Shown: one piece after another, positions 12,964-57,142 of the stretch
Numbering within the stretch: position 1 is the stretch's first letter
Layout of the letters: each line of letters begins with the position of its first letter
NCBI GenBank assembly: GCA_902791695.1
Contig: CADAWR010000001.1
Span: forward strand, 1 to 64,000
Source of the DNA: an uncultured Bacteroidota bacterium
Lineage (GTDB): Bacteria > Bacteroidota > Bacteroidia > Bacteroidales > P3
Reading direction: 5' to 3'
Length of the DNA stretch: 64,000 nt
Translations under genes and position numbers: made by a program
Notes under the pieces: model-generated
Databases searched by the model: none
What the model saw: only the letters and a program-made list of their open reading frames with translations
Told to the model about the DNA's origin: nothing

Positions 12964-13063
12964 CGTACCCCCTCCGTCTGTTCTACGGTTGTTCACCGGT
13001 TGTTTAACGATTTAAACCGTCGAACAACCGGTGAACAACCGTAGAACAGACGGAGCGGGTACG
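12964..13063. repeat. Intergenic palindrome family, copy 1
   Basis: A perfect 31-bp inverted repeat (12974-13004 with 13023-13053) separated by 18 bases. Outer arms continue with GTACCCxCTCCG on the left and its complement on the right (one mismatch). The centre contains a near-palindrome, CGATTTAAACCG. Four related copies occur at 23721, 37420, 45083 and 57039. It lies in a divergent intergenic region between the ion channel and TonB-type receptor genes. Confidence 0.93.
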
Positions 13064-13171
13064 GAGGGGCGTCGGAGGACAACCGGCACTCCTGTGGAGA
13101 GGCTGCGATGAAAAAAAATATTTTTTGCCACCGGTTGCAAGTTTAGGCAAATTTATTGTACTAATAAATAT

Positions 13172-13179
13172 TATTTTTG
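13172..13179 (+). promoter_or_regulatory. Possible -7 element for TonB-type receptor
   Basis: TATTTTTG ends 16 bp before the ATG at 13195, implying a very short leader. No good -33 element was found. Confidence 0.4.
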
Positions 13180-13194
13180 TACTACAACACGAAT

Positions 13195-15849
13195 ATGAAG
13201 ATACGCAACATACTTGGAATCATGGCCTTTGCGGCCTTGATGACTATCGTTGGCAGCTATGCCGAAGCACAACCCGGAGGCCCCGGCGGCCCCCCGCCGG
13301 GAGGCAGCCTCGGCCACGGCAACAGCACCCGTAGGCGCCCGCCGATGACCGGCGACTGGAACCAGATGCAGGGCAACCAAGAGGCCCAGCAGGTGAGGCA
13401 GAAGAAGAAAGTGAAGGAGGGCGACACCTTCAAGGTGGTGGGCGAACTGCGCGACTCGGCGAGCGGAGAGTTCCTGGCCTTCGTCAATGTCGCCGTCCTC
13501 GACTCGGCCGACAGCAGCTTCGTAAAGGGCTCGGCCACCAACTTCGACGGACTCTTCGAGATAAGCGGCATACCGGCAGGCAGCTACCTGCTGCGCATCA
13601 CGGCCTTGGGCTACCGCAACCGCATGGTGCCATTCACGGTGAGCAACAACACAGCCCTCGGCACCCTGCGCGTGATGCCCGGCGCCACGACCCTCGACGC
13701 CGTGGAGATCACCGCCGAGAAGCCCCTCTACGCCATGGACGGCGAGAAGATGGTCTACAACGTCAGCGAGGACCCCAGCATACAGACCGGCACCACCGAG
13801 GACGCCCTGCAGAACGCGCCGGGCGTGGAGGTGGACGTGGAGGGCAACGTGAGCCTCCGCGGTGTTACCAGCGTGGAGATTTGGATCAACGACAAGCCGT
13901 CGAAACTGACCGAGGAGAACCTCAAGACCTACCTGCAGACCCTGCCTGCCAACGCCCTGGCCCGCATCGAGACCATCACCAACCCCTCGGCCAAGTATGC
14001 CACCGATGCCGAGGCGGTCATCAACATCGTCACCAACGCCCACATCAAGAGCAACCAGTTCGTGAGCTTCGGCGTCAACGGGAGCAACCAGCCCTTTGTG
14101 AGCCCTTGGGTGAGCTACATGTGGGCCAAGGAGAAGCTGAGCTTCAACCTCTTCGCCAGCGGGCGCTACAGCAAGCGCGACAACACCACCGACAGCCGTT
14201 CCTACATGAGGCGCGACCATAACGAAACACCCGACGGCACATACGACACGACGATGACAGACACCGTACACAGCGAGTCGCACAACAGTTCCCACAGCGC
14301 CAACATCTTCATGAACCTCAACTACGAGATTGACTCGATGACGGAGCTAAGCATCGACGCAGGCGGCTTCTACAACTACAACCCAAGCAACAACAACAGC
14401 CTGCGCCATCAGGAATACTACGACCTTGACAACCCGCCATTTGCCACCACCTACTACAACGACACGCTGGACTCGCGCAGCAAGGGTAACTCGCTGTTCG
14501 CCCACGCCGGTGCCGACTTCACCAAGAAGTTCGACCTCGAAGGGCACAATCTGCGCCTGAGCCTCAACACCCGTATGAACAACAATGCCAGCAAGCAGTG
14601 GTACAACCGCATGTACGATGTCTACACAATGAACGAGCACCGCTACCTGCTCAGCGAGGCACAGAGCTACGGCGGCAGCCTCGACGCCCGCTACAACCGC
14701 CCCTACAGCAAGGAGGGCGAGATGAGCTATGGCCTGCGTGCCGACATCAGCCACATGGACAATGCCTACGACCGCTACAGTGACACCGTGGGCAACGTGG
14801 TCGACGACCTGCGAACCTACCACTTCCTCGGCGGCAACGCCAACATCGACGCCGACGTTGACTGGACACACCGCTGGGGAAACTTCACCCTCAGCAGCGG
14901 CCTCGGCGTAGGTGTGGAGCGCGTATATTACACCTACCGCAGCAAGAAAGACTTCGCCGACAGCAACACGCTCCACCAGTTTGACTTCCACCCGTCGCTG
15001 CATATGAGTTACCGCACGGAAGACATGCACAACTTCAAGCTCAACTACACGATGCGGATGGCCAACCCCGACGAGGAGCAGCTGAGCAAGTTCCGCCGCT
15101 ACGGCGACGAGAGCTACTCGACGGGCAACGAGAACGGCCTGAAGCCGTCGTTCACGCACAGCGTCGAAGCCGGGTGGCAGAAGTTCTTCGAGCGCTTCGG
15201 CAACGTCGGCATCGAGGCCTACGGACGTCTGAGCACCAACGAAATCAGCAACCTCACCGACCGCACAGACCTCGACGAGTACATCACCGGCAAGGCTATC
15301 AGCTACTCGAAGCCCTACAACATGGGCACCAGCTGGCGCTACGGTGCGAGCCTGAACATGACATACCGCCCCTCGGGCTTCTTCAACGTGAGGCTCTATG
15401 CCAACGTGTACGACTACGGCTACCGCATGGAGTACGACCGCAACGGACAGCACCTCACCGACCAGCAGCACAAGACCTCGTGGAGCGCCCGCGTAAACGC
15501 TTGGGCCAAAGTCTTCAACCAGTACCAGGTGACCCTCGGCGCACGCTACACCTCGCCCACGCTGAGCCTGATGAGCACGCGCAAAGCCCGCTACGGACTG
15601 GACTTCGGCGTGCGCAGCGACTTCTTCAAGCGCAAGCTGTCGGTGTTCGTCAACGTGCAGGACATCTTCAACTGGGGCGGCCGCTTCGGCTCCGGCTCCG
15701 AGAATACCAACCCCTACTATCTGAGCGATGCCACGAACAAGATGACCAACAGCCGCTACATATCGGCCGGCATTACCCTCAGATTCGGTAAACTGGAGCT
15801 TGAAAAGAACGCCAAAGAAGGCTCAAGCGAAGCAGGTGACAGTCTGTAA
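13195..15849 (+). CDS. TonB-dependent receptor-like outer membrane protein
   Basis: An 884-aa outer membrane protein. Signal peptide (1-24, ending YAEA), a Gly/Pro-rich stretch (PGGPGGPPPGG), a CarboxypepD_reg-like domain (about 75-155), a plug-like domain (about 160-280; LRGVTSVEIWINDKP), and a large beta-barrel to the end, consistent with the 'outer membrane protein beta-barrel' family (OMP_b-brl_3). No SusD partner is adjacent, so it is unlikely to be a polysaccharide utilisation receptor. Start at ATG 13195 rather than the upstream TTG. The substrate is unknown. Confidence 0.87.
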   Translation: MKIRNILGIMAFAALMTIVGSYAEAQPGGPGGPPPGGSLGHGNSTRRRPPMTGDWNQMQGNQEAQQVRQKKKVKEGDTFKVVGELRDSASGEFLAFVNVAVLDSADSSFVKGSATNFDGLFEISGIPAGSYLLRITALGYRNRMVPFTVSNNTALGTLRVMPGATTLDAVEITAEKPLYAMDGEKMVYNVSEDPSIQTGTTEDALQNAPGVEVDVEGNVSLRGVTSVEIWINDKPSKLTEENLKTYLQTLPANALARIETITNPSAKYATDAEAVINIVTNAHIKSNQFVSFGVNGSNQPFVSPWVSYMWAKEKLSFNLFASGRYSKRDNTTDSRSYMRRDHNETPDGTYDTTMTDTVHSESHNSSHSANIFMNLNYEIDSMTELSIDAGGFYNYNPSNNNSLRHQEYYDLDNPPFATTYYNDTLDSRSKGNSLFAHAGADFTKKFDLEGHNLRLSLNTRMNNNASKQWYNRMYDVYTMNEHRYLLSEAQSYGGSLDARYNRPYSKEGEMSYGLRADISHMDNAYDRYSDTVGNVVDDLRTYHFLGGNANIDADVDWTHRWGNFTLSSGLGVGVERVYYTYRSKKDFADSNTLHQFDFHPSLHMSYRTEDMHNFKLNYTMRMANPDEEQLSKFRRYGDESYSTGNENGLKPSFTHSVEAGWQKFFERFGNVGIEAYGRLSTNEISNLTDRTDLDEYITGKAISYSKPYNMGTSWRYGASLNMTYRPSGFFNVRLYANVYDYGYRMEYDRNGQHLTDQQHKTSWSARVNAWAKVFNQYQVTLGARYTSPTLSLMSTRKARYGLDFGVRSDFFKRKLSVFVNVQDIFNWGGRFGSGSENTNPYYLSDATNKMTNSRYISAGITLRFGKLELEKNAKEGSSEAGDSL

Positions 15850-15891
15850 CAGACTATGCTCCAATGGCCAAAGAATTTTTTGAAAAAAATA

Positions 15892-15923
15892 TTTGGCCAG
15901 TTTAGAAAAAGTGTGTACTTTTG
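15892..15923 (+). promoter_or_regulatory. Promoter for tRNA-Gln
   Basis: TTTG at 15892-15895 and TACTTTTG at 15916-15923 with a 20-bp spacer. Confidence 0.8.
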
Positions 15924-15966
15924 CACCCGTTTTTGAGAGAAAAAGCAACGACAAAAACACAAAGAT

Positions 15967-16037
15967 TGTCCTATGGTGTAACGGTAGCACATCTGACTCT
16001 GGATCAGCTTGTCTTGGTTCGAATCCAGGTAGGACAA
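15967..16037 (+). tRNA. tRNA-Gln (CTG)
   Basis: Acceptor TGTCCTA pairs with TAGGACA, D arm GTG/CAC, anticodon loop CTCTGGA gives anticodon CTG, and T arm CTTGG-TTCGAAT-CCAGG. The encoded 3' end lacks a full CCA, unlike the tRNA-Phe in this window. Confidence 0.93.
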
Positions 16038-16042
16038 CAAGA

Positions 16043-16072
16043 AGACACCCCAAAACAGGGTGTCTTTTTTTT
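16043..16072 (+). terminator. Terminator after tRNA-Gln
   Basis: Stem AGACACCC / GGGTGTCT with a 7-base loop, followed by a run of eight T. Confidence 0.88.
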
Positions 16073-16074
16073 GT

Positions 16075-17619
16075 TTAGTCACCAATACCGATTACCATCG
16101 GAGCAATACGGTTTACAAAGGTTGTATCAGGGATTATGTCAGGGGTTTCAAGCCTTGTCTCTTGCAGCAGATTGACACTCTTGTTGCCGAGGATTATCTT
16201 TGTCTTGGGATTGCCCTGCATGTTGACGCCACGTAGGGTGATGCGCCCCGGCCCCTGAAAGACATGGGCACGGCGCTCGCTACCTGTTAGGTGGAAGAGT
16301 TCAACCTGACGGATACCTGCCATTGAATATACATCGAGATTATTGATAATGATATCGGGAAAAGCAGGAGTCTGCAACTCTTCGCGGCTGTTGAGGGGAC
16401 TGTCGATACGGCCACCCACGAAGATTGCGCCACGCTTAGCCGTAGGCCTCCATTGGCAGCTGTCCATGGTGAGCACAAAGTTGGTGTAAGCGTTGTATGT
16501 GTCCTCGATGTACACGGGGGTGAAGTTATCGAACGTACATGAACGGAAGGCCACGTCTCCGAAGACAGAGGAGAATTGGTTGAAGCCGTTGCGCTGGACG
16601 CAGTGGTCGAAGGTGACGTTGCGTCCATAGCAGTGGATATCGAAGCGGTTGAACTCTGAATATTCAATAGTGGTCTCGGTCATATTGTTGGTACCGAAGA
16701 CGCCCCAGTCGGTGAGTGATTTCAGCCTGCGGATGCGGGTATTGCGCAGATTGCCCAGCAGGATTCCGTAGCCGGAGTGGTTGGTTCGCGAATATGTGCC
16801 CCAGATAGTGAGACTGTCAATGACAACATTTGTGGAGTTGCAGATATATATTATAGCATCGTCACCGGCAAGCACATTACTGCGCGGGGTAACGACAACG
16901 ATGTTGCGAAGTGTGGCCTGGGAGAGGTTGTCCAGCTGAAGAAGATAGGTTGCGTTTGTAGAACTGGGTTCGCGCATAAGGGTGATATTGGTGAAAGTAA
17001 AGGGAGTCGTATCAATGCTGTCGAGCCTACGTGCCCAAAGGCTTGGACGGGAGCCTCCGGCATTGTAAGGCATCGCCGTAGTATCGTGGCTTATGCCATC
17101 GCGAACACGCATGATATCCTCGCGGTAATGGCCATATTGATAGCCACGGCGACGATCAACCCAAGGGGTGCTGTCGACAATATGCAGCAGCCAGTCGCCT
17201 TCGGCAAGCATGGGGATTCCCTTGAAGTTGCCGCTGTCGATGGCGCGGCATAAAACAAGCGTGTCGCCGACAGGGATAGGATATGAAGGGCGAGTGTATC
17301 GGAAAAGAAAGATATTGCTGGTATTGTTGGTGACGACGAAAACTGTCCCGCCGAAGTCGTTGTTTACCTGTAACGGAATACTCTGCGCTTCAGGAGGGAC
17401 AGCTATGCGGAGTGTATCAATGCCGGTATAACTGACACTACAGCCACATGAGTCGGCAGCTTGGTGCGTACGGAGTAGAACACGGTATACATCTACGGGA
17501 TCTTGTGCTTCCGTAAGGCCATATTGGAAAGGTGTAACAGTTTGAGCGCAGACCTTGCAATGGAAACTGAGGACGACCGCACAAATTGCGACAAATATCA
17601 GACGACACAGCTGCTTCAT
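16075..17619 (-). CDS. Secreted right-handed beta-helix protein
   Basis: A protein of about 514 aa with an N-terminal signal peptide (hydrophobic core LIFVAICAVVLSF, cleavage near VCAQ), starting at ATG 17619; an upstream ATG at 17640 is also possible. The middle (about 200-440) has the repeating strand pattern of parallel beta-helix proteins (TLRNIVVVTP, NVVIDSLTIWG, NTRIRRLKSL, NVTFDHC, DVAFRSC). No T9SS sorting domain or catalytic pectate-lyase residues are evident. It is probably a surface or periplasmic protein of unknown role, with a divergent promoter region shared with the DUF3857 gene. Confidence 0.75.
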   Translation of the reverse strand: MKQLCRLIFVAICAVVLSFHCKVCAQTVTPFQYGLTEAQDPVDVYRVLLRTHQAADSCGCSVSYTGIDTLRIAVPPEAQSIPLQVNNDFGGTVFVVTNNTSNIFLFRYTRPSYPIPVGDTLVLCRAIDSGNFKGIPMLAEGDWLLHIVDSTPWVDRRRGYQYGHYREDIMRVRDGISHDTTAMPYNAGGSRPSLWARRLDSIDTTPFTFTNITLMREPSSTNATYLLQLDNLSQATLRNIVVVTPRSNVLAGDDAIIYICNSTNVVIDSLTIWGTYSRTNHSGYGILLGNLRNTRIRRLKSLTDWGVFGTNNMTETTIEYSEFNRFDIHCYGRNVTFDHCVQRNGFNQFSSVFGDVAFRSCTFDNFTPVYIEDTYNAYTNFVLTMDSCQWRPTAKRGAIFVGGRIDSPLNSREELQTPAFPDIIINNLDVYSMAGIRQVELFHLTGSERRAHVFQGPGRITLRGVNMQGNPKTKIILGNKSVNLLQETRLETPDIIPDTTFVNRIAPMVIGIGD

Positions 17620-17696
17620 ATCGTTGGTTTTCACTAGCATTAGAACAAAAATGTAATATTTATAATAATTGCAAATGTAAGAAAAACTTTTTTTCG

Positions 17697-17704
17697 TATC
17701 TTTG
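17697..17704 (+). promoter_or_regulatory. -7 element for DUF3857 genes
   Basis: TATCTTTG, 26 bp before the ATG at 17731. Confidence 0.55.
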
Positions 17705-17730
17705 CATCACGAAACAATATATATAAAACA

Positions 17731-19719
17731 ATGAAAAAAATAGTTGTATTAGCCACATTGGTAGTGCTTTTTGGCACTGCCACGGTGGCGCAAGAGAGTG
17801 CCCTGCCGGACAAATATCCAACATCGAACACGGTGACGCTGTACGACTCTACAGGAGTGTACATGGAAGAATCAGGGCTCAGCCACGTGCAGACCCACAG
17901 GCTGATAGAGATGGGTTCCTATGCCGGATGCACACAGTGGAGCACTGTGAAGATGGACTACGACCCGCTGTCGGCATGGTGCGACATCACAGGAGTGATG
18001 GTGCATCGCCTCAACGGTGGCATTGACACGCTGGTGTGGCCCGGACGTGAAGGCAATGCACCGGTGTACGACTACGTAGCTCCCGCACGCCTCATCTACT
18101 GGGGCGCTAGCCAGAAGATGGTCGAGGTTGGCCATATGGACATCGGCGACAAACTAGAAATATGGACGTATAAAAAAGGCTACACCTACGCTTTGCTGCA
18201 GAACGAAGTACCGAGTCTCAACGCCACTTTTGCGGCATTGCCTGAGAGCGACGAGCGCTATGTGCCGCCAATGCGGGGTCACTTCTACGACATTGTGCCG
18301 TTCTGGAGCAGCGAGCCTGTGAAGCACAAGGTCTATCAACTGAACCTCCTCGAAAACAAGAAGCTGCAATATAAAGTGTATAACGGCGAGCTCGAGGTGA
18401 CGCGCGTCGCCGCCGAAGAGGAGGGTCGTTCACTCTATACCTTCGAGGGCAAGGATATCACACCGCTGAAGCGCGAGCCCCGCGCTCTGGCCGGCAACGA
18501 CATGCAATGCAAGCTGCTGCTCTCCACCAGCCCCGACTGGCAGGCCAAGAGCCGCTGGTTCTACGGCGTCAACGAGGACTACGGCAGTTTCAAGCCCACC
18601 CCAGCCGTACAGAAGAAGGTCGATGAACTACTGCGCGGCGCCAAGGACGAGATGGACAGCATCAGCCGTCTCACCCACTGGGTGGCCGACAACATCCGCT
18701 ATGCCGGAATCTCCATGGGCGAGGGCGAAGGCTTCACGCTCCACAATGCCGACATGATATTCACTGACCGCTGCGGCGTCTGCAAGGACAAAGCCTCCAT
18801 GCTCGTAACCTTCCTGCGTGCCGCCGGCTTCAAGGCCTACGCCGCGATGACCATGGCCGGCGAGCGTATCGACCGCATTCCCGCCGACCAGTTCAACCAC
18901 AGCGTCTGCGCTGTGCAGCTTCGCGACGGCTCCTTCCGCATGCTCGATCCCACCTGGGTGCCCAACGTACGCGAACTCTGGAGCAGCGCCGAGCAGCAAC
19001 AGGGCTACCTCATCGGCACAGCCGAAGGATGTGACCTCATGGAAACCCCTATCTCCCCTGCCGAAAACCACTACATACGCATCAACGGCACAAGTACCAT
19101 CGACAAAGATGGCACGCTCACCGGCACCATCAGCATCACTGCCGAGGGCCAGAGCGATGCCTCGGTACGCGGCGTCTTCAGCGCCCGCCAGAGCGAGTGG
19201 CGCCACAACCTCGAGCTGGAACTCCTCAAGATAGCCCCCACGGCAGAGATTATCGATATCCAGCATACCGACCCAGACCGCTATCTGGAGCAACCTGTCA
19301 GCATCACCTACAAGTACCGCATACCCCACTTCGCCACCGTCGACAAGGATGCCATAACATTCATCCCCCTTACCGCCCGCAACTTCTACAGCCGCGCCAT
19401 GAGCCACCTATACTTCGACTTCAGCCAGGAGCACCGTACCCAGCCCTTCAGCGACCGCTGCTCAAAGCTCATACAAATTCAGGAGACCATCACGCTGCCC
19501 TACGAGTACAAGCAGTTCCACTACCCCATGGTTGACGGCATTGCCGATCCCGCCGCTTCGTTCGGCTGTGGCTTCCAGATGGAGGGAAACAAGCTCACCT
19601 TCGGCGAGAGCCTGCTCTTCGGCAAGCGTGTCTACGATGCCGACGACTGGATGCCTTTCCGCGCCAGCGCCATGAACCAGATTAAAGTGTCACAAACTCC
19701 AGTAATTTTAACCAAGTAA
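17731..19719 (+). CDS. DUF3857 / transglutaminase-like periplasmic protein
   Basis: A 662-aa protein with a signal peptide (ending ATVAQ). The N-terminal part matches the DUF3857 layout, and the transglutaminase core has the expected triad: Cys in DRCGVCKDKA (about 351), His in QFNHSV (about 389) and Asp in MLDPTW (about 405). It would act outside the cytoplasm, as a protease or cross-linking enzyme; the substrate is unknown. The C-terminus is a DUF2569/DUF3858-like beta region. A shorter paralogue follows 4 bp downstream in the same operon. Confidence 0.85.
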   Translation: MKKIVVLATLVVLFGTATVAQESALPDKYPTSNTVTLYDSTGVYMEESGLSHVQTHRLIEMGSYAGCTQWSTVKMDYDPLSAWCDITGVMVHRLNGGIDTLVWPGREGNAPVYDYVAPARLIYWGASQKMVEVGHMDIGDKLEIWTYKKGYTYALLQNEVPSLNATFAALPESDERYVPPMRGHFYDIVPFWSSEPVKHKVYQLNLLENKKLQYKVYNGELEVTRVAAEEEGRSLYTFEGKDITPLKREPRALAGNDMQCKLLLSTSPDWQAKSRWFYGVNEDYGSFKPTPAVQKKVDELLRGAKDEMDSISRLTHWVADNIRYAGISMGEGEGFTLHNADMIFTDRCGVCKDKASMLVTFLRAAGFKAYAAMTMAGERIDRIPADQFNHSVCAVQLRDGSFRMLDPTWVPNVRELWSSAEQQQGYLIGTAEGCDLMETPISPAENHYIRINGTSTIDKDGTLTGTISITAEGQSDASVRGVFSARQSEWRHNLELELLKIAPTAEIIDIQHTDPDRYLEQPVSITYKYRIPHFATVDKDAITFIPLTARNFYSRAMSHLYFDFSQEHRTQPFSDRCSKLIQIQETITLPYEYKQFHYPMVDGIADPAASFGCGFQMEGNKLTFGESLLFGKRVYDADDWMPFRASAMNQIKVSQTPVILTK

Positions 19720-22828: not shown

Positions 22829-22829
22829 A

Positions 22830-23625: not shown

Positions 23626-23656
23626 CAAAGATACATATTTTTCATTAAACGGCAAG
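23626..23656 (-). promoter_or_regulatory. Promoter for barrel-HerA operon
   Basis: TATCTTTG on the minus strand (plus CAAAGATA 23626-23633), with a weak -33 (CTTG) 19 bp further upstream. Confidence 0.5.
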
Positions 23657-23720: not shown

Positions 23721-23820
23721 CGTACCCTCTCCGACTGTTCTACGGTTGTTCACCGGTTGTTTAACGGTTTAAACCGTCGAACAACCGGTGAACAACCGTA
23801 GAACAGTCGGAGAGGATACG
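23721..23820. repeat. Intergenic palindrome family, copy 2
   Basis: Perfect 31-bp inverted repeat (23731-23761 with 23780-23810) and 18-base centre carrying the palindrome CGGTTTAAACCG. Arms extend through CGTACCCTCT with one mismatch, giving about 40-bp arms. Compared with copy 1 both arms carry a paired change (CCGTCTG to CCGACTG on the left, CAGACGG to CAGTCGG on the right). It lies in a divergent intergenic region. Confidence 0.93.
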
Positions 23821-23850: not shown

Positions 23851-23882
23851 TTTCACCATGTCTGAAAAAAGGTGTACTTTTG
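23851..23882 (+). promoter_or_regulatory. Promoter for second acyl-CoA ligase
   Basis: TTTC at 23851-23854 (one change from TTTG) and TACTTTTG at 23875-23882, spacer 20 bp. Confidence 0.65.
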
Positions 23883-26842: not shown

Positions 26843-26850
26843 TACTTTTG
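26843..26850 (+). promoter_or_regulatory. -7 element for the cobalamin operon
   Basis: TACTTTTG just before the riboswitch; the -33 element is not at the usual spacing. Confidence 0.55.
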
Positions 26851-26854
26851 CACT

Positions 26855-27030
26855 CGGTTTCGGTCGGCCGTAGAAGGCCGATAATAGGGAACCGGGTGCA
26901 ATTCCCGGGCAGTCCCGCTGCTGTGAGCCTCAACTATTTAGGCACCCCAAAAACCACTGTGCGCCGCCACAGGCGCATGGGAAGGTAGGGTGCCGGAGGC
27001 AAGCCAGAAGACCTGCCGAAGCTGCAAGAA
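26855..27030 (+). promoter_or_regulatory. Cobalamin (B12) riboswitch
   Basis: It contains the ordered signatures of the class: GGGAACCGGGTGCAA, then CCCGGGCAGTCCCGCTGCTG with TGTGAGCC, then CCACTGTGCG, GGGAAGGTAGGG, and the B12 box AGCCAGAAGACCTGCC (27002-27017). It lies between a promoter and the BtuB-type receptor gene and should shut down expression when adenosyl- or methylcobalamin is abundant. No terminator hairpin with T run follows, so control is likely at translation initiation. Confidence 0.95.
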
Positions 27031-27061
27031 ACAACATGAAGCCTTCGAGGAAAGGACGGAA

Positions 27062-29098
27062 ATGAGCATTGTCAACCTATATTGTAAATTATCGTTTATC
27101 GTATGCCGACGACTACGACGACCGGCGGCAGTCCCGCTTCCAGTCCGTCCTCTCCTCATGGCTTTGTGTCTGACCATTGCTTCATTTGATGACATATCGG
27201 CCCAAGACACGGTGCGCAGTCTCGACGAGGTGGAGGTCACCTCGCAGCGCACTCCCTCTACTCTGCGCACGGCGGTGCCGACACAGGTGATGGACATTGA
27301 GAAAATTGAGGCACAGGGGGCTCTGCAGCTGAGCGACGCCATCAAGCAGATGGCTGGCGTGACACTGAAGGACTACGGCGGCATCGGTGGACTGAAGACT
27401 GTGTCGGCACGCGGCTTAGGCACCCAGTTCTCAACGCTGACCATCGACGGCGTGGCCGTGGACAATTCGCAGAACGGCCAGGTGGACCTTGGCCGCTATC
27501 TGCTGGGCAACGCCGCCTACGTGAGCCTGAGCCAAGGGCAACAGCAGGAGAGCCTGCTATCAGCACGCGCATACGCCGCCGGCAACGTAATAAGCCTCGT
27601 GAGCGCCGAGCCGCGGTTCTTCCTCGCTGAGCGCACCAATCTCAAGGTTGGCATGGAGCTAGGGTCCTTTAATATGTTCTCTCCCTCAATGCTGTGGGAA
27701 CAGAAATGGAGCAAACGACTAAAGAGCAGCTTGTGGATTAACTACTTGAAAAGCGAAGGCGACTATCCCTTCACACTCTATTATACCCTCGATCGCAATG
27801 GTCAAACAAGCCGCGAGCGCCGCAGGCATTCGGCCATGCGCATGTTCACCGCCGACGGGTCGCTGTTCTATACCATAGCACGCAACAATACACTGACGGC
27901 CAAGCTACACTATATGCGTGGCATGCACCAACTACCGGGTCCTGTGCAGCTCTACAACCAGTTGTCGTCGGCCGAGAGCACGCGCGAGGAGGTGGCTTTC
28001 GGACAACTGCGCTGGCGCGTAGAGCGCAAGAAGGTGAAATGGCAGGTGCTTGCCAAGGCACAGCAGACGTGGGACTTCTACGAAGACAGCGCTGCGGCAA
28101 ACAGCACACACTACTTGCACAATGAGTACCTGCAACGAGAAGCTTACCTCAGCGGCAGCGGAGCTTGGACGGCGAAAGAGTGGCTCGACATAAATGCCTC
28201 GGTGGATGCCACCAGCAACTGGCTCAACTCCAATCTGCAGCAGCGTTACGAGGTGCAACGCTCAAGCCTGCTCGGCGTGGCAGACATGCGTATGCACCAC
28301 GCCGGCTTCGAGGCTCGCGCCCATCTGCTTGCCACACTGATACGCGACCGTGTGGTTGACCTAGACACGCTGCCATTTTACCACCGCTTTTCTCCTTATG
28401 CAAGCCTTATGTATACCATAGGCAAAGGCACCACGCTGCGCTACTTCTACAAAGAGACCTACCGCGCGCCAAACTTTAGCGAACTGTATTTCTTCACCAT
28501 GCCACGCAACCTGCGTCCGGAGTGCGCACGCCAGCACAACATTGGCGTCACGCACACTGCCGAACAGTGGGGCGGCACGCTGGACATGTATTACAACCGC
28601 GTAACTGACAAGATAATAGCCATACCGACACAGAACATGTTTCTCTGGAGCATGCAGAACATTGGCAAGGCTGAAATACTAGGCATAGATGCCACAGCTG
28701 ACGTTTACGTCTCTACGGTTACCGTCCATCTCAACTACAGCTTCCAGCATGCCGTCGACCGCAGCGACACCGCCAGCAAAAGCTACGGCCACCAGATAGC
28801 CTACACGCCACGCCACAGCGGCGGCGCATCGCTACGCTGGGAGAACCGGTGGGTGAACCTTGGCGCGTCGGCCATGGTTGTCGGCGAGCGCTACTATCGC
28901 ATGCAGAACAGCGACGCCACTCGTATGCCCGCCTACTGCGACATGGGTCTTATCGCCGACCGCAAGATAGACCTGCGCTGGGGCACCATGACCGTGCAAG
29001 TGCAGGTTCTCAACCTGTTCAACACACAGTATGAGGTGGTGCGCTCTTACCCCATGATGGGACGCAACTACCGTCTGAAGATAACCTATGAACTATGA
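27062..29098 (+). CDS. btuB: TonB-dependent cobalamin receptor (BtuB-type)
   Basis: A 678-aa outer membrane receptor under the cobalamin riboswitch. An N-terminal hydrophobic stretch ends near DISAQ, then a TonB-box-like segment (LDEVEVTSQR), the plug domain (VRG-like ARGLGTQFSTLTIDGV), and a 22-strand-type barrel ending in aromatic KITYEL. The start is set at ATG 27062, after the B12 box; the frame is open upstream but that part is riboswitch. The signal peptide is unusually long and basic, so ATG 27158 (MALCLTIAS) is an alternative. It would import corrinoids with the lipoprotein encoded 4 bp into its end. Confidence 0.9.
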   Translation: MSIVNLYCKLSFIVCRRLRRPAAVPLPVRPLLMALCLTIASFDDISAQDTVRSLDEVEVTSQRTPSTLRTAVPTQVMDIEKIEAQGALQLSDAIKQMAGVTLKDYGGIGGLKTVSARGLGTQFSTLTIDGVAVDNSQNGQVDLGRYLLGNAAYVSLSQGQQQESLLSARAYAAGNVISLVSAEPRFFLAERTNLKVGMELGSFNMFSPSMLWEQKWSKRLKSSLWINYLKSEGDYPFTLYYTLDRNGQTSRERRRHSAMRMFTADGSLFYTIARNNTLTAKLHYMRGMHQLPGPVQLYNQLSSAESTREEVAFGQLRWRVERKKVKWQVLAKAQQTWDFYEDSAAANSTHYLHNEYLQREAYLSGSGAWTAKEWLDINASVDATSNWLNSNLQQRYEVQRSSLLGVADMRMHHAGFEARAHLLATLIRDRVVDLDTLPFYHRFSPYASLMYTIGKGTTLRYFYKETYRAPNFSELYFFTMPRNLRPECARQHNIGVTHTAEQWGGTLDMYYNRVTDKIIAIPTQNMFLWSMQNIGKAEILGIDATADVYVSTVTVHLNYSFQHAVDRSDTASKSYGHQIAYTPRHSGGASLRWENRWVNLGASAMVVGERYYRMQNSDATRMPAYCDMGLIADRKIDLRWGTMTVQVQVLNLFNTQYEVVRSYPMMGRNYRLKITYEL

Positions 29099-37352: not shown

Positions 37353-37360
37353 CAAAGATA
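37353..37360 (-). promoter_or_regulatory. -7 element for ftsE operon
   Basis: Plus CAAAGATA reads TATCTTTG on the minus strand, 26 bp upstream of the ATG. Confidence 0.5.
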
Positions 37361-37419: not shown

Positions 37420-37512
37420 CCCTACCCGCTCCGTACCCGCTCCGACTCCCCTCCGACAAAAAACCGTTAAACAACCGGTGAACAGTCGGAGCGGGTACGG
37501 AGCGGGTACGGA
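37420..37512. repeat. Intergenic palindrome family, copy 3 (short variant)
   Basis: Arms are built from tandem 11-mers (GTACCCGCTCC on the left, GGAGCGGGTAC on the right), pairing over about 25 bp (near 37423-37447 with 37482-37506). The inner part keeps only one half of the usual inner arm (CCGTTAAACAACCGGTGAAC), so the centre is internally shortened. It lies between two minus-strand genes, upstream of ftsE. Confidence 0.85.
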
Positions 37513-45082: not shown

Positions 45083-45185
45083 ACGTCACTTCACCGATTG
45101 TTTACCGACTGTTTAACGGTAAAAACCGGTGAACAACCGGTAAACAACCGGTGAACAGACGGAGCGGGTACGGAGAGGGTACGAA
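45083..45185. repeat. Intergenic palindrome family, copy 4 (degenerate)
   Basis: The right half keeps the family core (ACCGGTGAACAACCGG, then AACAACCGGTGAACAGACGG and AGCGGGTACGG). The left half (TTCACCGATTGTTTACCGAC) pairs imperfectly. It is in the 244-bp gap between nitroreductase and etfB, 60 bp upstream of the etfB promoter. Confidence 0.82.
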
Positions 45186-45244: not shown

Positions 45245-45276
45245 TTTGGCCATGTCGGGAATTTAACGTATTTTTG
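45245..45276 (+). promoter_or_regulatory. Promoter for etfBA-acyl-CoA dehydrogenase
   Basis: TTTG at 45245-45248 and TATTTTTG at 45269-45276 with a 20-bp spacer, 22 bp before the ATG. Confidence 0.8.
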
Positions 45277-49980: not shown

Positions 49981-50475
49981 TTAGGCGTCAGCAAACACTT
50001 TGCCATCCTGCAGCGTGACCTGCAGCTTGGTGTACTCGCTGTGAAAGTCGTTTTTCAAACGGTCAAGGTAGCGACGACTCTCCCAGTGGCACATAGGCAG
50101 GTCATGCAACAGACAATTGCCGCAAGTCTCGGGCGTAGTAGCGGGAACCTCTCGTTGAGTGAGTATCCACTCGAGGCACTCGATGGTGAGGCGACGCATA
50201 TCCTCAACTGAATAGTTGCCCGTCATAATGACATACATGCCTGTGAGGCAACCCATAGGCCCCACATACACCACGTCGTCCTTGGCCTCCGAATTGCGGA
50301 ACCAAGTGGCCATAAGATGCTCAAGGCTGTGCATGGCCGCCGGAGCCACTGCCGGTTCTTGATTAGGCTCGGTGATACGTAGGTCAAAGGTAGTAAAGCC
50401 CTTGTCGACGCGCGACACATAGATGCCGGGCTTCAAATGAGTATGGTCTATTGTGAAACTCTGTATTACTTCCAT
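49981..50475 (-). CDS. luxS: S-ribosylhomocysteine lyase
   Basis: A 164-aa enzyme that splits S-ribosylhomocysteine into homocysteine and the AI-2 precursor DPD. Metal ligands His49 and His53 (HSLEH) and Cys118 (TCGN) are present, as is the active-site Cys76 (GPMGCLTGM). It follows mtnN by 5 bp, so the two steps that recycle SAH lie together. Cytosolic. Whether AI-2 signals in this organism cannot be told. Confidence 0.96.
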   Translation of the reverse strand: MEVIQSFTIDHTHLKPGIYVSRVDKGFTTFDLRITEPNQEPAVAPAAMHSLEHLMATWFRNSEAKDDVVYVGPMGCLTGMYVIMTGNYSVEDMRRLTIECLEWILTQREVPATTPETCGNCLLHDLPMCHWESRRYLDRLKNDFHSEYTKLQVTLQDGKVFADA

Positions 50476-50480
50476 ATAAC

Positions 50481-51143: not shown

Positions 51144-51151
51144 ATCGTTTG

Positions 51152-51159
51152 CAAAAATA
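51152..51159 (-). promoter_or_regulatory. -7 element for mtnN-luxS
   Basis: Plus CAAAAATA reads TATTTTTG on the minus strand, 8 bp upstream of the mtnN ATG. No -33 element placed. Confidence 0.45.
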
Positions 51160-51247
51160 CGACTTTTTTTGATATTTGGTGCGACACTGTATAATATTAT
51201 CCCTTAACATCCGTTATAAGAACATCTTAAAATATCAACAATAGACT

Positions 51248-52474
51248 ATGAAACGCTGGTTTAGAGTCGTCATAATATCCATTTTCGCCCTTGCGGCCGT
51301 CAGTTTGGTGGTCATCCAGCTGGTGCAGACACGCCGCTCGCTCTCTATCAGTGACAATATGTTCAGCGTCAGTGTCGGCAATGCCATGGAGGATGTCATA
51401 AACCAACTTGACAACGACAATCCTAATGCAACCACATCCTTCAGCTACCAAGACCTCGACTCGCTCATTGTCGAAGAGCTCATCATCAATGGCATTGACA
51501 TGCACCCTGTCATCGGAGTATACGATGGCTCTCAAGGCTCGTTCCTCTACAGCTCCGATCCACGCCGCGAAACCGACCTTGTCAACTCGCCTTACCGATA
51601 CAGTTTCCGTCCACAAGGCGTAGTCTCCACAAACCAGTTCTTCATCATCCTCAGCTTCTCATGGGCCGACCTCTTTCTGCAGCGAAACCCATCCATATAT
51701 CTCTACATGAGCAGCTTCCTCATACTCGTCATAGCCGCCATGTTCTTCATATCGCTGCGCACCATCTCTAACCAGCGCAAGCTCGACCAAATGAAGGGCG
51801 AGTTCATCAACAACATGACCCACGAAATCAAGACGCCCATATCCACCATAAGCCTCGCCTGTGAGATGCTGAGCGACGAAAGCATCTCGCAGGATGTCGC
51901 ATCACGCTCAAACTTCATTGGCATAATCTCCGATGAGAACCAACGCATGCGTGTCCTTGTGGAGACTATTCTCCAGAGCGCCAAGATGTCGAACAAGAAC
52001 TTCACCATCAATCCCAAAGAGGTGGACATCAACGACATCGTCGACAAAGTACTCAATAGCTTCAAGCTCACTTTCGCCAACCGCAGCGGTATTGTTGAGA
52101 AACACCTCAACGCCAATCCGTCCGTCATCATTGCCGACGAGTTGCACATGACCAACCTAATCTACAACCTCGTCGACAACGGCATCAAATACTCCAACGG
52201 AGCGCCACATATTGAAGTTAGCACCTCCATCGACGGAAAACATTTCCTCCTGAGCATCAAGGACCATGGCATCGGCATCAGCAAGGCCGACCAGAAGCAC
52301 ATTTTCGAGAAATTCTACCGTGTCTCCACGGGCAACGTACACAACGTGAAAGGCTTCGGCATAGGTCTCAACTATGTGGCACAGGTGGTGCGTCTGCATC
52401 ACGGCCACATCACCGTGGAGAGCGAGCCCGGCCACGGCTCCACCTTCATTGTTTCACTGCCTATCAACGGCTGA
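51248..52474 (+). CDS. Membrane sensor histidine kinase
   Basis: A 408-aa kinase with two transmembrane helices (about 7-27 and 151-171) flanking a periplasmic sensor of about 120 residues. HisKA domain with His192 in MTHEIKTP, then HATPase with NLVDNGIKYSN (N box), DHGIGIS (G1) and GFGIGLNYV (G2). The plan resembles RprX of Bacteroides. No response regulator gene is adjacent in this window, so its partner is elsewhere. The stop lies one base before the stop of the convergent hydrolase. Confidence 0.92.
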   Translation: MKRWFRVVIISIFALAAVSLVVIQLVQTRRSLSISDNMFSVSVGNAMEDVINQLDNDNPNATTSFSYQDLDSLIVEELIINGIDMHPVIGVYDGSQGSFLYSSDPRRETDLVNSPYRYSFRPQGVVSTNQFFIILSFSWADLFLQRNPSIYLYMSSFLILVIAAMFFISLRTISNQRKLDQMKGEFINNMTHEIKTPISTISLACEMLSDESISQDVASRSNFIGIISDENQRMRVLVETILQSAKMSNKNFTINPKEVDINDIVDKVLNSFKLTFANRSGIVEKHLNANPSVIIADELHMTNLIYNLVDNGIKYSNGAPHIEVSTSIDGKHFLLSIKDHGIGISKADQKHIFEKFYRVSTGNVHNVKGFGIGLNYVAQVVRLHHGHITVESEPGHGSTFIVSLPING

Positions 52475-52475
52475 C

Positions 52476-53810
52476 CTACAGCCCCAATATCCAATCGGCC
52501 ACAGCCTTCATCGCTTCAGGCGCAAAGGTCTCTTCTATTAGCATGTATTCCGTTGCATCGCCAGTACTGCAATGCTGGAACATGTGATTCAACCCCTCCA
52601 TCCGTCGGCAGTCTGCCTTAGGGCACAGCTCTTTGATACGCATCAGGTTGGGCTTCGCCACCACTTGGCAGTCTTTCGTGCCGTTCAATGCAAGCACGGG
52701 GCATTTCACCCTCGGCAGATACTCGGCCGGATCAAGCGCAATGAACGACCTCATCCAGCGCGTGTCGAGCTGCTGCTTCAATGCATGGCCCATACCTTTC
52801 TTCAGCTCCACACTGTCGGCCTCCGACTTATCAAGACCCTCTATGTGGCGCACTATCACAGCCTGATACTCTTTTATCGTGCTTCCTTGCGGCAAGCCCA
52901 TCAGTTCCCTCATGCAGGCTCCACGAACCTTGCAGAGACGTTCACTCACTCCGCGTGAGCGGAAAAGGGCCTCGTTCTGCTGAACCATAACTTCGAGGCC
53001 ACTGCAGCCTTGTCCGGCAAGCATCACCACGAATCTTACATCCTTGTCCTTTGCTGCCACCATGGGGGCAATTGCTCCACCTTCACTATGTCCACCTATG
53101 CCAAGACGCTTAGCATCCACATGCCTGTTGCCCTTCACGGCATTGAACATCGCTTCCGCATCCTCGGCGAAGAGACGCGTGTCGGCATTCTCCACTTCGC
53201 CGGTACTGGCCCCCACACCTCGGTCGTCATATCGCAGCACAGCAATACCCCGCGATGCCAAGTAGTCGGCCAGCACCAGAAAAGGCTTGTGCTGCATTAT
53301 CTCCTCGTCGCGGTTCTGCTGCCCGCTGCCGCTGACCAGCACCACGCAGGGATACCGCCCCCCACCCTTCGGAAAGGTGAGCGTGCCCTCCAGATGTACG
53401 GCGTGGCCTTGGCTGTCGGTGTAGTCGGCCGCTATGGTCTCTTCGTCAAAGCCATACGGCGCCACTGGCATCTGCGGACGGCGCAGCTGGTACAAAGTGT
53501 CGGCTGGCACAAAACTGATGTTCTCTTTCATGAAGCCTTGCTTCCAATAGCCGCTCCAGCCGTCGGCATCGCGCGTCAGCACCGTCTTGAAGCCAATGCT
53601 GCTGCATTCTATTCGCAGCGTATCGTTACGCAGGCTCCACCCGCTCACCGGTATCGCATCCTGCGACTGCAGCGGACTGTAGATCTCTGCCGCAGAGTCC
53701 TTCAAGTGTATGCACAACACCAATCCGGTCTGCTTGCTCATTCCTGTAAACCACTGTGCGTGGACCGTCAGGCCCACGCACAGCATCATTGCTATTGCAA
53801 TCTTCTTCAT
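52476..53810 (-). CDS. Secreted alpha/beta hydrolase
   Basis: A 444-aa protein with a signal peptide (ending TVHAQ), an N-terminal beta domain of about 110 residues and an alpha/beta hydrolase domain. The catalytic triad is Ser in GGHSEGG, Asp in NGTKDCQV and His in GLNHMFQ; the oxyanion stretch is VSGSGQQNRD. Family features point to an esterase or peptidase of the periplasm. Start at ATG 53810. It is the last gene of the SPFH-NatAB-RHH unit, 9 bp after the RHH gene. Confidence 0.87.
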   Translation of the reverse strand: MKKIAIAMMLCVGLTVHAQWFTGMSKQTGLVLCIHLKDSAAEIYSPLQSQDAIPVSGWSLRNDTLRIECSSIGFKTVLTRDADGWSGYWKQGFMKENISFVPADTLYQLRRPQMPVAPYGFDEETIAADYTDSQGHAVHLEGTLTFPKGGGRYPCVVLVSGSGQQNRDEEIMQHKPFLVLADYLASRGIAVLRYDDRGVGASTGEVENADTRLFAEDAEAMFNAVKGNRHVDAKRLGIGGHSEGGAIAPMVAAKDKDVRFVVMLAGQGCSGLEVMVQQNEALFRSRGVSERLCKVRGACMRELMGLPQGSTIKEYQAVIVRHIEGLDKSEADSVELKKGMGHALKQQLDTRWMRSFIALDPAEYLPRVKCPVLALNGTKDCQVVAKPNLMRIKELCPKADCRRMEGLNHMFQHCSTGDATEYMLIEETFAPEAMKAVADWILGL

Positions 53811-53819
53811 TTGTCTCAA

Positions 53820-53969
53820 CTACTTTTTAGGCATCCGCTTGGCCTTTTTCAAGGCTTCGGCTATTATCCATTCTATCTGCCCATTGGCACTGCGGAACTC
53901 GTCCGCGGCCCATTTCTCAATGGCGTCGTAGACTTCCGAGTCAATTCGCAGTGCAAAATTCTTCTTCAT
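53820..53969 (-). CDS. Small ribbon-helix-helix (Arc-like) protein
   Basis: A 49-aa protein read directly from the sequence (MKKNFALRIDSEVYDAIE ... EALKKAKRMPKK). The short N-terminal strand FALRID followed by two helices is the ribbon-helix-helix plan of Arc/CopG DNA-binding proteins. Its ATG overlaps the stop of the ABC permease gene (ATGA), and the hydrolase gene starts 9 bp after its stop. It could regulate this operon. No toxin partner is evident. Confidence 0.8.
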   Translation of the reverse strand: MKKNFALRIDSEVYDAIEKWAADEFRSANGQIEWIIAEALKKAKRMPKK

Positions 53970-55147
53970 TTTGAGAACATCACTTTCTCACTGTTGAACA
54001 ACCTCGTCAGGGCCCATACGGCAATGCCCGTGTACACCACATCGGAGGCCATGGTGACAACAACCGGCGTCCATTCAAGCTCGTGGCTGAAGACCGCCGT
54101 CATCACCTCTATGCCATTGTAGAAGGGGATGAGATAGACCGCAAGGTTGGCGGAGGCTCCGTCCTGGAACATCGGCAGCAGGCCGGCAAGCATCACCACC
54201 AGCATGAAGGGTGTCACCATGGTGCCTGCGTTCTTCACGTCCTTGGCCAATGCCGACAGTAGACTCACGGCACTAGCCATGATAAGCACCGAGGCAAGGA
54301 TAACCAGCAGCAGCGCCACATAGTCGCTGGTGGTATAGTGGAAGCCAAGGTCCACACCTTCATCCATGCCCACCATCTTGGGCAGCGAGAGGGCTATGCC
54401 TATGAAGCTGGAGATACCGCTGAGCAGCGCTATGCCGCTGAGCGAAACAATCTTGCCCAGCGCCAGTTCGTTGCGCTTCATGGGGGTGACAAGCAGCGTG
54501 GCTATGGTGCCGCGCTCTTTCTCACCGGCAATACTGCTGGGCGCTATAGCCATCACACCGCTGAAGAGCATCATCATTATCAGCATCGGCAGTATCTTGC
54601 TCCAAATCATGGCGCCGATGCTGTCGTCAGTGGCTTGGTCGAAGCGCTGTCCCTCCACCTGCGGCACGTTGACCGTGAAGGTACGGCCATAGTTGCCAAG
54701 CATAGTACTCACCGCCATATACACGCGACTGGCGGCATTATTGGTGCTGTTATAGTATATCTCCACGTTGGGCAGAGCCTCTCTTTCCACTTCACACTTA
54801 CCTATCACCAATTCATCGAAACCCTCCGGGAAGCGCACCAGCACGGCATTGAGCTCCTTGTCCTCGAGCATCGCTATGTCAGCCTCGGTCACAGGCTGCT
54901 GCACCACTACAAGGCTGCTGTCCATGGCGCCGAACAGCGGTGCCATGCTTTCGGGCATGTTCTCCACGCGCATCGTCACCACCTCGCCGGCACCTTTGGT
55001 GATCATACTCTGTATGCCGGTGCCCATCAGGCTATAGATGATGTATATCAGCAAGCCAGGCATTATCACCGTTGTGAACAACAGCTGCCTGTCGCCGAAA
55101 AAGCGCGCAAACTCTTTCTTTATTATTGTCCATGTGTTGCTTTTCAT
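53966..55147 (-). CDS. ABC transporter permease (NatB-like)
   Basis: A 393-aa ABC-2 type permease with six transmembrane helices: one at about 22-42, then a periplasmic loop of about 150 residues, then five between about 190 and 385. The cytosolic loop with GEKERGTIATLLVTPM is the hallmark of NatB/ABC-2 permeases. It pairs with the ATPase encoded just upstream (4-bp overlap). Substrate unknown; Na+ or drug export is common for the family. Confidence 0.87.
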   Translation of the reverse strand: MKSNTWTIIKKEFARFFGDRQLLFTTVIMPGLLIYIIYSLMGTGIQSMITKGAGEVVTMRVENMPESMAPLFGAMDSSLVVVQQPVTEADIAMLEDKELNAVLVRFPEGFDELVIGKCEVEREALPNVEIYYNSTNNAASRVYMAVSTMLGNYGRTFTVNVPQVEGQRFDQATDDSIGAMIWSKILPMLIMMMLFSGVMAIAPSSIAGEKERGTIATLLVTPMKRNELALGKIVSLSGIALLSGISSFIGIALSLPKMVGMDEGVDLGFHYTTSDYVALLLVILASVLIMASAVSLLSALAKDVKNAGTMVTPFMLVVMLAGLLPMFQDGASANLAVYLIPFYNGIEVMTAVFSHELEWTPVVVTMASDVVYTGIAVWALTRLFNSEKVMFSK

Positions 55148-55920
55148 TCTTCACCTCCTTTCACTTCTTTGTACAGTTCGAAGAAACGGTCCTCGATTGT
55201 GAGGCCGTTGCAGATTTCGCTGAGGGCTCCGCAAGCCACCAGACGGCCGTCGATGATGATGCCCACGCGGTCGCACAGGCGCTCCACGAGGCTGAAGATG
55301 TGCGTGCTCAGTATTATCGTCTTGCCTTCGCCGCGCAGCTCCTGCAGGTAGTCGGTCACCGTGCGCGCCGTCAGCACGTCGAGGCCGTTGGTGGGCTCGT
55401 CGAAGATGATGACCTCGGGGTCATGCACCAGCGATATCACCAGACTCAGCTTCTGCTTCATGCCGGTAGAGAGGTTGGCCACCTTCACCTCGGCGAACTT
55501 GTCTATGCCGAAGCGCTTGAACATGCGCTCCTTGCGCGCCGCCGTGGTGTTGGGGTCCACACCGTGCAGCTGGCTGAAGAAGTCGAACAGGTAGTTCGGT
55601 GTGAAGAAGTCCTCCAGCTTCAGCTCGCTGGTGAGGAAGCCAATCTTGCCCCTCACCTCCTCGGGCTGGCGCACCACGCTGCAACCGTCGAGCACGGCGT
55701 CGCCGCTGTCGGGCTTTATCAGGGTGCTCAGCATGCGCAGCGTCGTGGTCTTGCCGGCTCCGTTGGGGCCCAGCAGGCCGAATATCTCGCCGCGCGCGGC
55801 GCTGAACGTCAGGTTGTCCACAGCCACTTTGCGCTTGGCGGTGGTACGCTCTATCTTCTGTTGCTTACGGCTCAGCGTGAACGTCTTGCTGAGCCCTTCC
55901 ACTTTCAATATCTCTTCCAT
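55144..55920 (-). CDS. ABC transporter ATP-binding protein (NatA-like)
   Basis: A 258-aa ABC ATPase: Walker [12 protein letters not shown]-loop, signature LSTGMKQK, Walker [11 protein letters not shown] and a STHI switch. The N-terminal 30 residues include a basic insert ([14 protein letters not shown]) before the first strand. It forms the exporter with the overlapping NatB-like permease. Start placed at ATG 55920 (MEEILKVEG). Confidence 0.9.
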
Positions 55921-55922
55921 AA

Positions 55923-56885
55923 TCAATAAATGCTTCCTGTGTTAATTACCGGGCTGGCGCCCTCGTCGCCGCAGAGCACCACCATCAGGTTGCTCACCAT
56001 GGCGGCCTTGCGCTCTTCGTCCATCTCCACCACCTTGTCGGCGGCCAGCTTCCTAAGGGCCATGTCGACCATCGACACAGCACCCTCCACAATCTTCTCG
56101 CGGGCGGCAATGATGGCCTCGGCCTGCTGGCGCTTGAGCATCACGCTGGCAATCTCCTGCGCGTAGGCGAGATAATTGATACGCGCCTCCACGACCTCGA
56201 TGCCGGCTATGTCGAGGTGCTTGCTGATCTCCTGCTCTAGACGGCGGTTCACCTCCTCGCCGCCGGTGCGCAGCGTCACCTCGTTCTTGTCCTCGAGGTT
56301 GTCATAGCTGTAGAGGCTCGCCACCTTGCGCAGTGCCGAGTCGCTCTGCACCGACACGAAGTTGTCGTAGCCCTTCAACTGCTGCTGCACGGTGGTGCTG
56401 TTGGTGTTCACCGTCACCTGACGGCTCGCAGCAGGCTGCGTGGTGGTCTCAACGTCGATGTTGAAGCAAGCTTTGTAGGTGTCCTTGATGCGCCACACCA
56501 GCACCAGGCCGATCATGATGGGGTTGCCGCCGCGGTCGTTCACCTTGATGGGCGGCACGTCCATGTTGCGGGCGCGCAACGATAGTTTGCGCTTCACGTA
56601 GAAGGGATTGGTCCAGAAGAACCCGTTTTCGGTCACCGTGCCGCTGTAGCGGCCGAAGAAGGTCAGCACACGGCACTGGTTGGGCTGTATCACCATGAAG
56701 CCCGGCAGGTGGAACCCCCACACCACCCACAGCAGACCGCCCGCGAGGCCGGCACCGGACATCTCCTTGGCGCCGGCAATGACACACAGCCAGATGGCCA
56801 GCACCATCATGGCCAAATTCAGAACCAGATGCAGGAAACCATTGTTCCCGACACCCATCTTTTTCAAAACTTCTTTACTTTCCAT
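55923..56885 (-). CDS. SPFH/band 7 domain membrane protein
   Basis: A 320-aa protein with two N-terminal transmembrane helices (about 17-37 and 45-65) and an SPFH domain (about 70-260; VLTFFGRYSGTV, GIEVVEARINYLAYAQEIA), followed by an AAREKIVEGAV coiled segment. It probably forms flotillin-like rings that organise or protect membrane proteins. Start at ATG 56885. It heads a coupled unit with the NatAB exporter, an RHH protein and a hydrolase, so it may scaffold the exporter. Confidence 0.9.
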   Translation of the reverse strand: MESKEVLKKMGVGNNGFLHLVLNLAMMVLAIWLCVIAGAKEMSGAGLAGGLLWVVWGFHLPGFMVIQPNQCRVLTFFGRYSGTVTENGFFWTNPFYVKRKLSLRARNMDVPPIKVNDRGGNPIMIGLVLVWRIKDTYKACFNIDVETTTQPAASRQVTVNTNSTTVQQQLKGYDNFVSVQSDSALRKVASLYSYDNLEDKNEVTLRTGGEEVNRRLEQEISKHLDIAGIEVVEARINYLAYAQEIASVMLKRQQAEAIIAAREKIVEGAVSMVDMALRKLAADKVVEMDEERKAAMVSNLMVVLCGDEGASPVINTGSIY

Positions 56886-56947
56886 ATTACTTATTTTTAA
56901 TTGTTTACCCAAATTTATGTGATATTATTTCAATATCATTACGACTG

Positions 56948-56978
56948 CAAAAGTACAAACATTCCCGACACCGGCAAA
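56948..56978 (-). promoter_or_regulatory. Promoter for SPFH-NatAB operon
   Basis: On the minus strand TTTG (plus CAAA at 56975-56978) and TACTTTTG (plus 56948-56955), spacer 19 bp. Confidence 0.75.
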
Positions 56979-57038
56979 ACCTTTTTTCATTTTTAACATA
57001 TTTTAAACAATCCACCTCCTCTGCCGCTCCGGTGCCTC

Positions 57039-57142
57039 TCCGTACCCGCTCCGTCTGTTCTCCGGTTGTTCACCGGTTGTTTAACGGTTTAAACCGGAGA
57101 ACAGTCATAGAACAACCGGAGAACAGACGGAGCAGGTACGGA
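57039..57142. repeat. Intergenic palindrome family, copy 5
   Basis: Perfect 20-bp outer arms (57051-57070 with 57111-57130), extended by CGTACCCGCT / AGCAGGTACG with one mismatch. The inner part keeps CACCGGTTGTTTAACGG and TTTAAACCGG, but its right inner arm is replaced by unrelated sequence. Relative to copy 1 both arms carry a paired A-to-C / T-to-G change (TTCTACGG to TTCTCCGG, CCGTAGAA to CCGGAGAA). It is located in a divergent intergenic region. Confidence 0.9.

Follow-up and report, generated by a model that had tools for sequence, protein, structure and literature searches.

What are the long palindromes that recur between genes in this DNA? The original prediction described a family of five in the window (the whole 64,000-nucleotide stretch analysed here) and offered REP/BIME- or MITE-like elements, a chromosome-binding site or structured leader RNA as explanations. 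All five inverted repeats lie where it placed them (Table 1), none within a gene as judged by a simple gene caller, and it was also right that three of them (copies 1, 2 and 5) are divergent, copies 3 and 4 being in tandem intervals, and that each has nearby, about 55–109 bp from a copy edge, the motif TAnnTTTG, which we take to be the Bacteroidetes -7 motif. Folded as single-stranded DNA, every copy beat 200 of 200 shuffled sequences (z of -15.0, -16.6, -9.8, -6.5 and -12.4 for copies 1 to 5). The long perfect arms of copies 1 and 2 are there, their inner stems running without interruption for 33 and 36 pairs instead of the 31 claimed, and the layout said to be common to all five is intact in copies 1, 2 and 5 and degraded in copies 3 and 4; against a 28-bp core the five copies have 1, 0, 13, 5 and 3 mismatches, respectively. 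Two features had been overlooked. One is an asymmetry of the core, described below; the other is an 11-bp periodicity: within the left half of the window copies, identity at lag 11 is 0.50–0.73, against at most 0.38 at lags 9, 10, 12 and 13.

Table 1. Palindromic arrays in the window and the predicted promoter motifs beside them.
Feature	Position	Strand	Remark
Copy 1	12964..13063	+	11-bp modules arrayed as a dyad; flanking genes divergent
Copy 2	23721..23820	+	Perfect core, between divergent genes
Copy 3	37420..37512	.	Degraded: inner left arm lost, outer modules retained; flanking genes on the same strand
Copy 4	45083..45185	+	5-mismatch core; flanking genes on the same strand
Copy 5	57039..57142	+	3-mismatch core, between divergent genes
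Predicted -7 motif	12892..12899	-	Beside copy 1, 114 bp from copy centre
Predicted -7 motif	13172..13179	+	Right of copy 1
Predicted -7 motif	23626..23633	-	Left of copy 2
Predicted -7 motif	23875..23882	+	Beside copy 2, 104 bp from copy centre
Predicted -7 motif	37353..37360	-	Beside copy 3
Predicted -7 motif	45269..45276	+	Beside copy 4
Predicted -7 motif	56948..56955	-	Beside copy 5

The genome-wide search that had been called for, run with the 28-bp core, revealed a family far larger than five. Allowing up to three mismatches, the 2.17-Mb genome holds 39 forward and 42 reverse matches, and the reversed core used as a control gave 0 and 0. These matches mark 77 places, four of which match the core on both strands; with window copies 3 and 4 and the loci L092 and L093 (4 mismatches), the repeat family has at least 81 copies, or about one per 27 kb. 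Neither a family of five copies only nor one of ordinary terminators, the two outcomes that the original prediction had set against itself, was found.

An alignment of 77 copies, from which window copies 3, 4 and 5 and L092 were left out, has CG steps at ±5.5, 16.5, 27.5, 38.5, 49.5, 60.5 and 71.5 bp from the centre. In an intact copy, 11-bp modules form a dyad of about 145 bp in which CG recurs every 11 bp; the step runs unbroken across the palindrome centre, and each module reads GTTY-NN-C-NNNN on the inward strand. Information content declines outward over ±72 bp and the alignment has no edge. The asymmetry of the core is conserved (TTTAACGG / CCGTCGAAC) and gives each copy an orientation. 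We suggest, with about even confidence, that these are phased operator arrays for a putative DNA-binding protein whose specificity drifts between species. What this reading has to account for was computed in each case: the modules, the step across the centre, the outward fade, and, as described below, the divergent placement, the promoter register, the dialects and the nrdD-pruA site.

It might instead be the palindromic shape itself that matters, cruciform or hairpin extrusion taking up supercoiling where genes diverge, with no dedicated binder involved. The very stable folds and the divergent sites agree with this, as do arms that covary at the outer positions d=29, 30 and 37 and the central loops of two relatives (G040 and G034), whose sequence varies while their length, and the 11-bp spacing, stay constant. 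Extrusion would, however, require neither a single module sequence in each species nor a step of 11 bp; covariation is absent at the inner positions d=18 and 19, agreement at d=15 is below that of shuffles, and the arms of a third relative (G012) are unlike, so we regard this explanation as improbable. Some position pairs off the symmetry are also associated, and covariation as proof of hairpin pairing was set aside as a mixed, non-decisive result.

The 77 places comprise 47 divergent, 22 tandem and 5 convergent intervals, two contig ends and one site within an ORF. That ORF encodes a type IA topoisomerase whose first domain starts past the element, which suggests that the ORF was falsely extended across it. 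As background, gaps of 150 bp or more, taken from the window minus its copies and from samples of G075, G101, G079 and G022, number 17 divergent and 12 convergent; for 47:5 against 17:12, a one-sided Fisher test on this counted background, used in place of a binomial assuming equal divergent and convergent numbers, gives p=0.0012. Neighbouring genes named by NCBIfam, several of them cut by the locus end and below the curated cut-off, include gyrB, gyrA, dnaB, typA, acpP, guaA, guaB, tpiA and clpB, and the remaining neighbours were judged by eye. That copies stand upstream of gyrB, gyrA and the type IA topoisomerase gene (L008, L081 and L030) was noticed post hoc. At another locus (L080), the right-hand gene predicts a protein in which a AKADPNVGLKCDQSG-like stretch is repeated close to the start.

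Such placement bears on the REP/BIME proposal. REP units are 20–40 bp long, lie mainly between unidirectional and convergent genes and often occur with a RAYT (PMC3733652). The family resembles REP/BIME as described there in consisting of dispersed intergenic palindromes, but differs from it in being about 145 bp long and divergent, and in that no Y1 was found (PMC3733652): a search for a linked RAYT gave no PF01797 match in this genome, which is 95% complete, and control genomes were positive. The REP/BIME proposal fails on placement and on the missing Y1.

Strong hairpins would also be expected of terminators, or of RNA folding in leaders or at 3' ends, and 22 tandem and 5 convergent copies, together with the mostly convergent arrays sampled in G012, would suit them. 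We nevertheless consider this origin very improbable: 47 of the 77 copies are divergent, a T-run after the stems is not apparent by eye, and an Rfam scan of the window returned a cobalamin riboswitch and two tRNAs only, with no match at any copy. Structured leader RNA, another of the original proposals, is unlikely for most copies because the predicted promoters sit between element and gene. The riboswitch itself, at 26844–27034 (+) of the window, lies upstream of the gene at 27158–29098.

The proposed tie to TAnnTTTG promoters was borne out in the form of an 11-bp phase of the predicted motifs. Promoters here are motif predictions, and distance runs from the copy centre to the last TAnnTTTG before each outward-facing start codon; 83 of the 118 outward gene starts in this genome have the motif, 68 of them within the distance limits. 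The distances (n=68) cluster near 103, 114, 125, 137 and 147 bp; for a period of 11.0 bp R is 0.55 (p about 1e-9), and for 11.25 bp it is 0.57. This phasing was reached by 0 of 5000 jittered sets, and a rerun (n=67) recovered it with R=0.57. No 11-bp phase is seen for start codons (n=107, R=0.09) or stop codons (n=31, R=0.04) of the same genome. A reverse-strand motif control, of only 11 distances, gave R(11)=0.38 (p=0.21) and peaked at 11.5 bp, where R was 0.66.

Among 190 genomes of the family the core was found in five, all within the genus. The three-module pattern of GTTYNNCNNNN reached further, with matches in 70 of the 120 genomes of the genus (ten or more in 30 of these) and a single match in each of 6 among 70 genomes from other genera. 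A reversed pattern that retained the 11-bp spacing reached ten matches in 3 of the 190 (G065, G101 and G104), and G101 has its own arrays (GTTGTCCGMTT and GTTGTCCAGTT), four 11-bp palindromes with lag-11 identity of at least 0.7 occurring in a 100-kb sample of it. No 11-bp palindromes were seen in the sampled parts of G075 (100 kb), G022 (44.6 kb) and G079 (40 kb), or of G163 (60 kb) and G126 (21.6 kb) from other genera.

In sister species the architecture is the same and the module letters differ; we call these variants dialects (Table 2). The species sampled mostly have one main module each, and among the matches listed more than one dialect occurs within G055, G049, G042 and G048. Between sister species the modules differ by near one-letter steps (CGGTT, CGATT, CAATM, CAGTH).

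Table 2. Module dialects of species among the matches listed.
Genome	Module
G000 (this genome)	GTTCACCGGTT and GTTCTACGGTT
G048	GTTCTACGGTT
G042	GTTCTTCGGTT and GTTCGACTTGA
G040	GTTCTTCGATT
G034	GTTCTTCAATM
G039 and G073	GTTCTTCAGTH
G012	GTTCTCCCATC
G017 and G083	GTTCRACCATC

G039, a relative of distant dialect, searched with its own centre, gave 89 forward and 88 reverse matches, mostly at the same places. Of its 53 distinct loci (59 less six duplicates), 12 are at contig ends; the others occupy 26 divergent, 11 tandem and 4 convergent intervals, and 26:4 against the 17:12 background gives a Fisher p of 0.016. Copies lie within about 300 bp of the ends of its contigs C8, C9, C15, C16, C26 and C31, and since they adjoin contig ends the repeats seem to break the assembly. 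Nine G040 loci divide into 2 divergent, 4 tandem and 3 convergent, and at least 7 of 10 arrays sampled in G012 lie between convergent genes. The G012 loci L146 and L195–L204 are inverted half-arrays with side-specific modules, mostly convergent, and are possibly a distinct variant. Three further loci, L152 (G020), L154 (G024) and L172 (G059), are direct-repeat arrays of 11-bp modules with no obvious palindrome, and L183 (G040) has, near a normal array and at about 1335–1445, a second palindrome whose TTCTAGA-type words recur at a shorter period.

Species dialects of a repeated short word recall the DNA-uptake sequences (DUS) of Neisseriaceae, which exist in thousands of copies and serve transformation (PMC3630211). 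The likeness is that species-specific variants of one repeated word are conserved within species; the arrays differ in being 11-bp dyad arrays at predicted promoters (PMC3630211). That the arrays are uptake or recombination signals with species dialects seems to us barely credible, given about 80–90 dyad arrays as against thousands of single words, and a promoter phase that has no role in such a model.

The promoter phase was compared between dialects. G048 matches the phase of this genome (n=10, jitter p=0.0004), and so does G039 (n=38, jitter p=0.0016; 3.7 against 4.3 bp), which taken alone has R(11)=0.35 for its 38 promoters (p=0.009) and R=0.10 for start codons. Agreement was not significant for G096 alone (n=7, p=0.12) or for a mixed set of other dialects (n=15, four of them from G039; p=0.29); unfiltered, the mixed set gave R(11)=0.25 (n=17, p=0.35), with the highest R at 12 bp. 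Loci under the score, arm and lag-11 limits had been dropped before the mixed dialects were counted. Pools of G039 with the other dialects and of all genomes but this one would enter the four shared G039 distances twice, and we draw nothing from them. An earlier pooled set (n=28), from which L097, L143 and L209 were left out as weak palindromes, gave R(11)=0.47.

Orthologous intergenic regions, whose comparison had been asked for, contain the element in some relatives and lack it in others. A gene adjacent to one of our copies is shared, with consistent geometry, at 5 of the 12 loci fetched from G048 and 5 of the 6 from G096; the orthologous centre-to-motif distances differ mostly by about 0, 11, 22 or 33 bp, with two exceptions (+5 and +8), and the arrays L006 and L096 differ by one 11-bp module per arm. 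A palindrome of 11-bp modules stands upstream of pruA in 8 of 30 species. Seven of the 30 have nrdD and pruA in divergent orientation, and between alignable flanks the element is present in five of these (G000, G096, G048, G083 and G073), which represent three dialect groups, and absent in the other two syntenic species, G077 and G094; the spacers of these two are too diverged to reveal a clean empty site. For the far dialects, an adjacent gene is shared with consistent geometry at 2 of 8 G040, 2 of 10 G034, 1 of 9 G039, 1 of 10 G012, 1 of 2 G042 and 1 of 1 G036 loci; by a rough estimate this is near chance, and we make no claim from it. The pair L082–L106 aligns but has the element on opposite sides of the gene, and was rejected as orthologous.

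Independent insertions at a hot spot may account for the pruA site, as expected of MITE-like mobile elements that insert preferentially, and in a phase-dependent manner, upstream of promoters; each dialect would then mark a burst in a single lineage, and shared sites would go back to old insertions or to hot spots. Such elements would also leave near-identical copies, as within G040 and G039, patchy presence across the genus and multiple dialects in a single genome. We hold this explanation to be unlikely, if worth keeping in view, and the MITE-like option of the original prediction fares poorly on several counts: conservation fades outward where sharp terminal inverted repeats would be expected, the copies are in phase with the -7 motif, the genome has no Y1 transposase, no transposase was recognised by eye in the genes flanking the copies, and 5 of 12 G048 and 5 of 6 G096 loci occupy consistent orthologous places.

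We return to phased operator arrays, for which the promoter register (absent for start and stop codons), the divergent bias, the replication in G039 and G048, the one main module in most species sampled, the three dialect groups at nrdD-pruA and the 11-bp spacing that the variable centres of G040 and G034 retain all argue. Against them stand the non-significant phase in the mixed dialects and G096, the G012 arrays, the several dialects per genome and the outer-arm covariation, which a pure double-stranded DNA site does not require. No binder was found, and the signs of one are indirect, namely phase and dialects; of the three original proposals, a putative binding site comes closest. We infer that a candidate protein would bind module after module along one face of the DNA, cooperatively, that the bound array would tune transcription from both adjoining promoters, and that the specificity of the binder would drift between species with the sites following. 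Relaxed B-DNA has a repeat of about 10.5 bp; at 11.0 bp per module, underwound DNA would be needed for all modules to point in the same direction, and the array could thus respond to negative supercoiling of the kind expected where promoters diverge. More tentatively still, and with low confidence, the arrays may represent a genus-wide class of cis-element in which geometry is conserved and letters are not, a quickly re-specifying protein reading dyads in register with divergent housekeeping promoters, those of gyrA and gyrB included, on underwound DNA as a supercoiling sensor, with some 80–90 sites rewritten as species split.

If operator arrays are the right reading, a dispersed regulatory system would swap its recognition letters at many sites and keep position, symmetry and promoter phase, and the arrays would be a natural record of helical phase retained between an upstream array and its promoters. 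The near one-letter dialect steps between sister species make it testable by comparison how a regulator and its whole set of sites shift specificity together.

No description of this family was met in the open-access literature searched. Besides REP/BIME and the DUS, two known systems come near it. The BrickBuilt MITE of Porphyromonas gingivalis has a 23-nt unit, 19 copies and a defined leader and tail, and bidirectional promoter activity has been reported for it (PMC4596501). Like our arrays it is intergenic, belongs to Bacteroidales and has tandem modules with inverted ends; unlike them, it is credited with neither promoter phase nor dialects in the portions of that account on which we draw (PMC4596501).

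The other system is that of CarH/CarA, regulators of the MerR family whose operators are tandem 11-bp repeats, nnnnTnnACAn, bound on one DNA face, in sets of three to five direct repeats that overlap the -35 of carotenoid promoters (PMC9304148). Because CarH operators have 11-bp repeats, a MerR protein was examined. This genome has one MerR_1 gene, and the protein occurs in 24 of 26 genomes examined, being missing in G105, which has arrays, and in G075. It hardly varies between species of different dialect, G083 and G073 differing at 1 of 104 residues, and was rejected as the determinant of dialect. A partial second MerR copy with an internal stop lies 7 kb from the intact gene (L297, G000:C3:216441-216623). 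As for the operators, our arrays keep the 11-bp step throughout, in keeping with tandem repeats on one face, and the module read on the outward strand, nnnnGnnRAAC, is laid out as in CarH operators, one base being followed by a 2-bp gap and then by a short word, whereas the arrays differ in being dyads, in numbering about 80 per genome and in lying upstream of predicted promoters (PMC9304148). The family would seem, on its sequence features, to be of the operator-array kind and a variant of it, resembling an 11-bp operator array to a degree that stops short of establishing identity with CarH.
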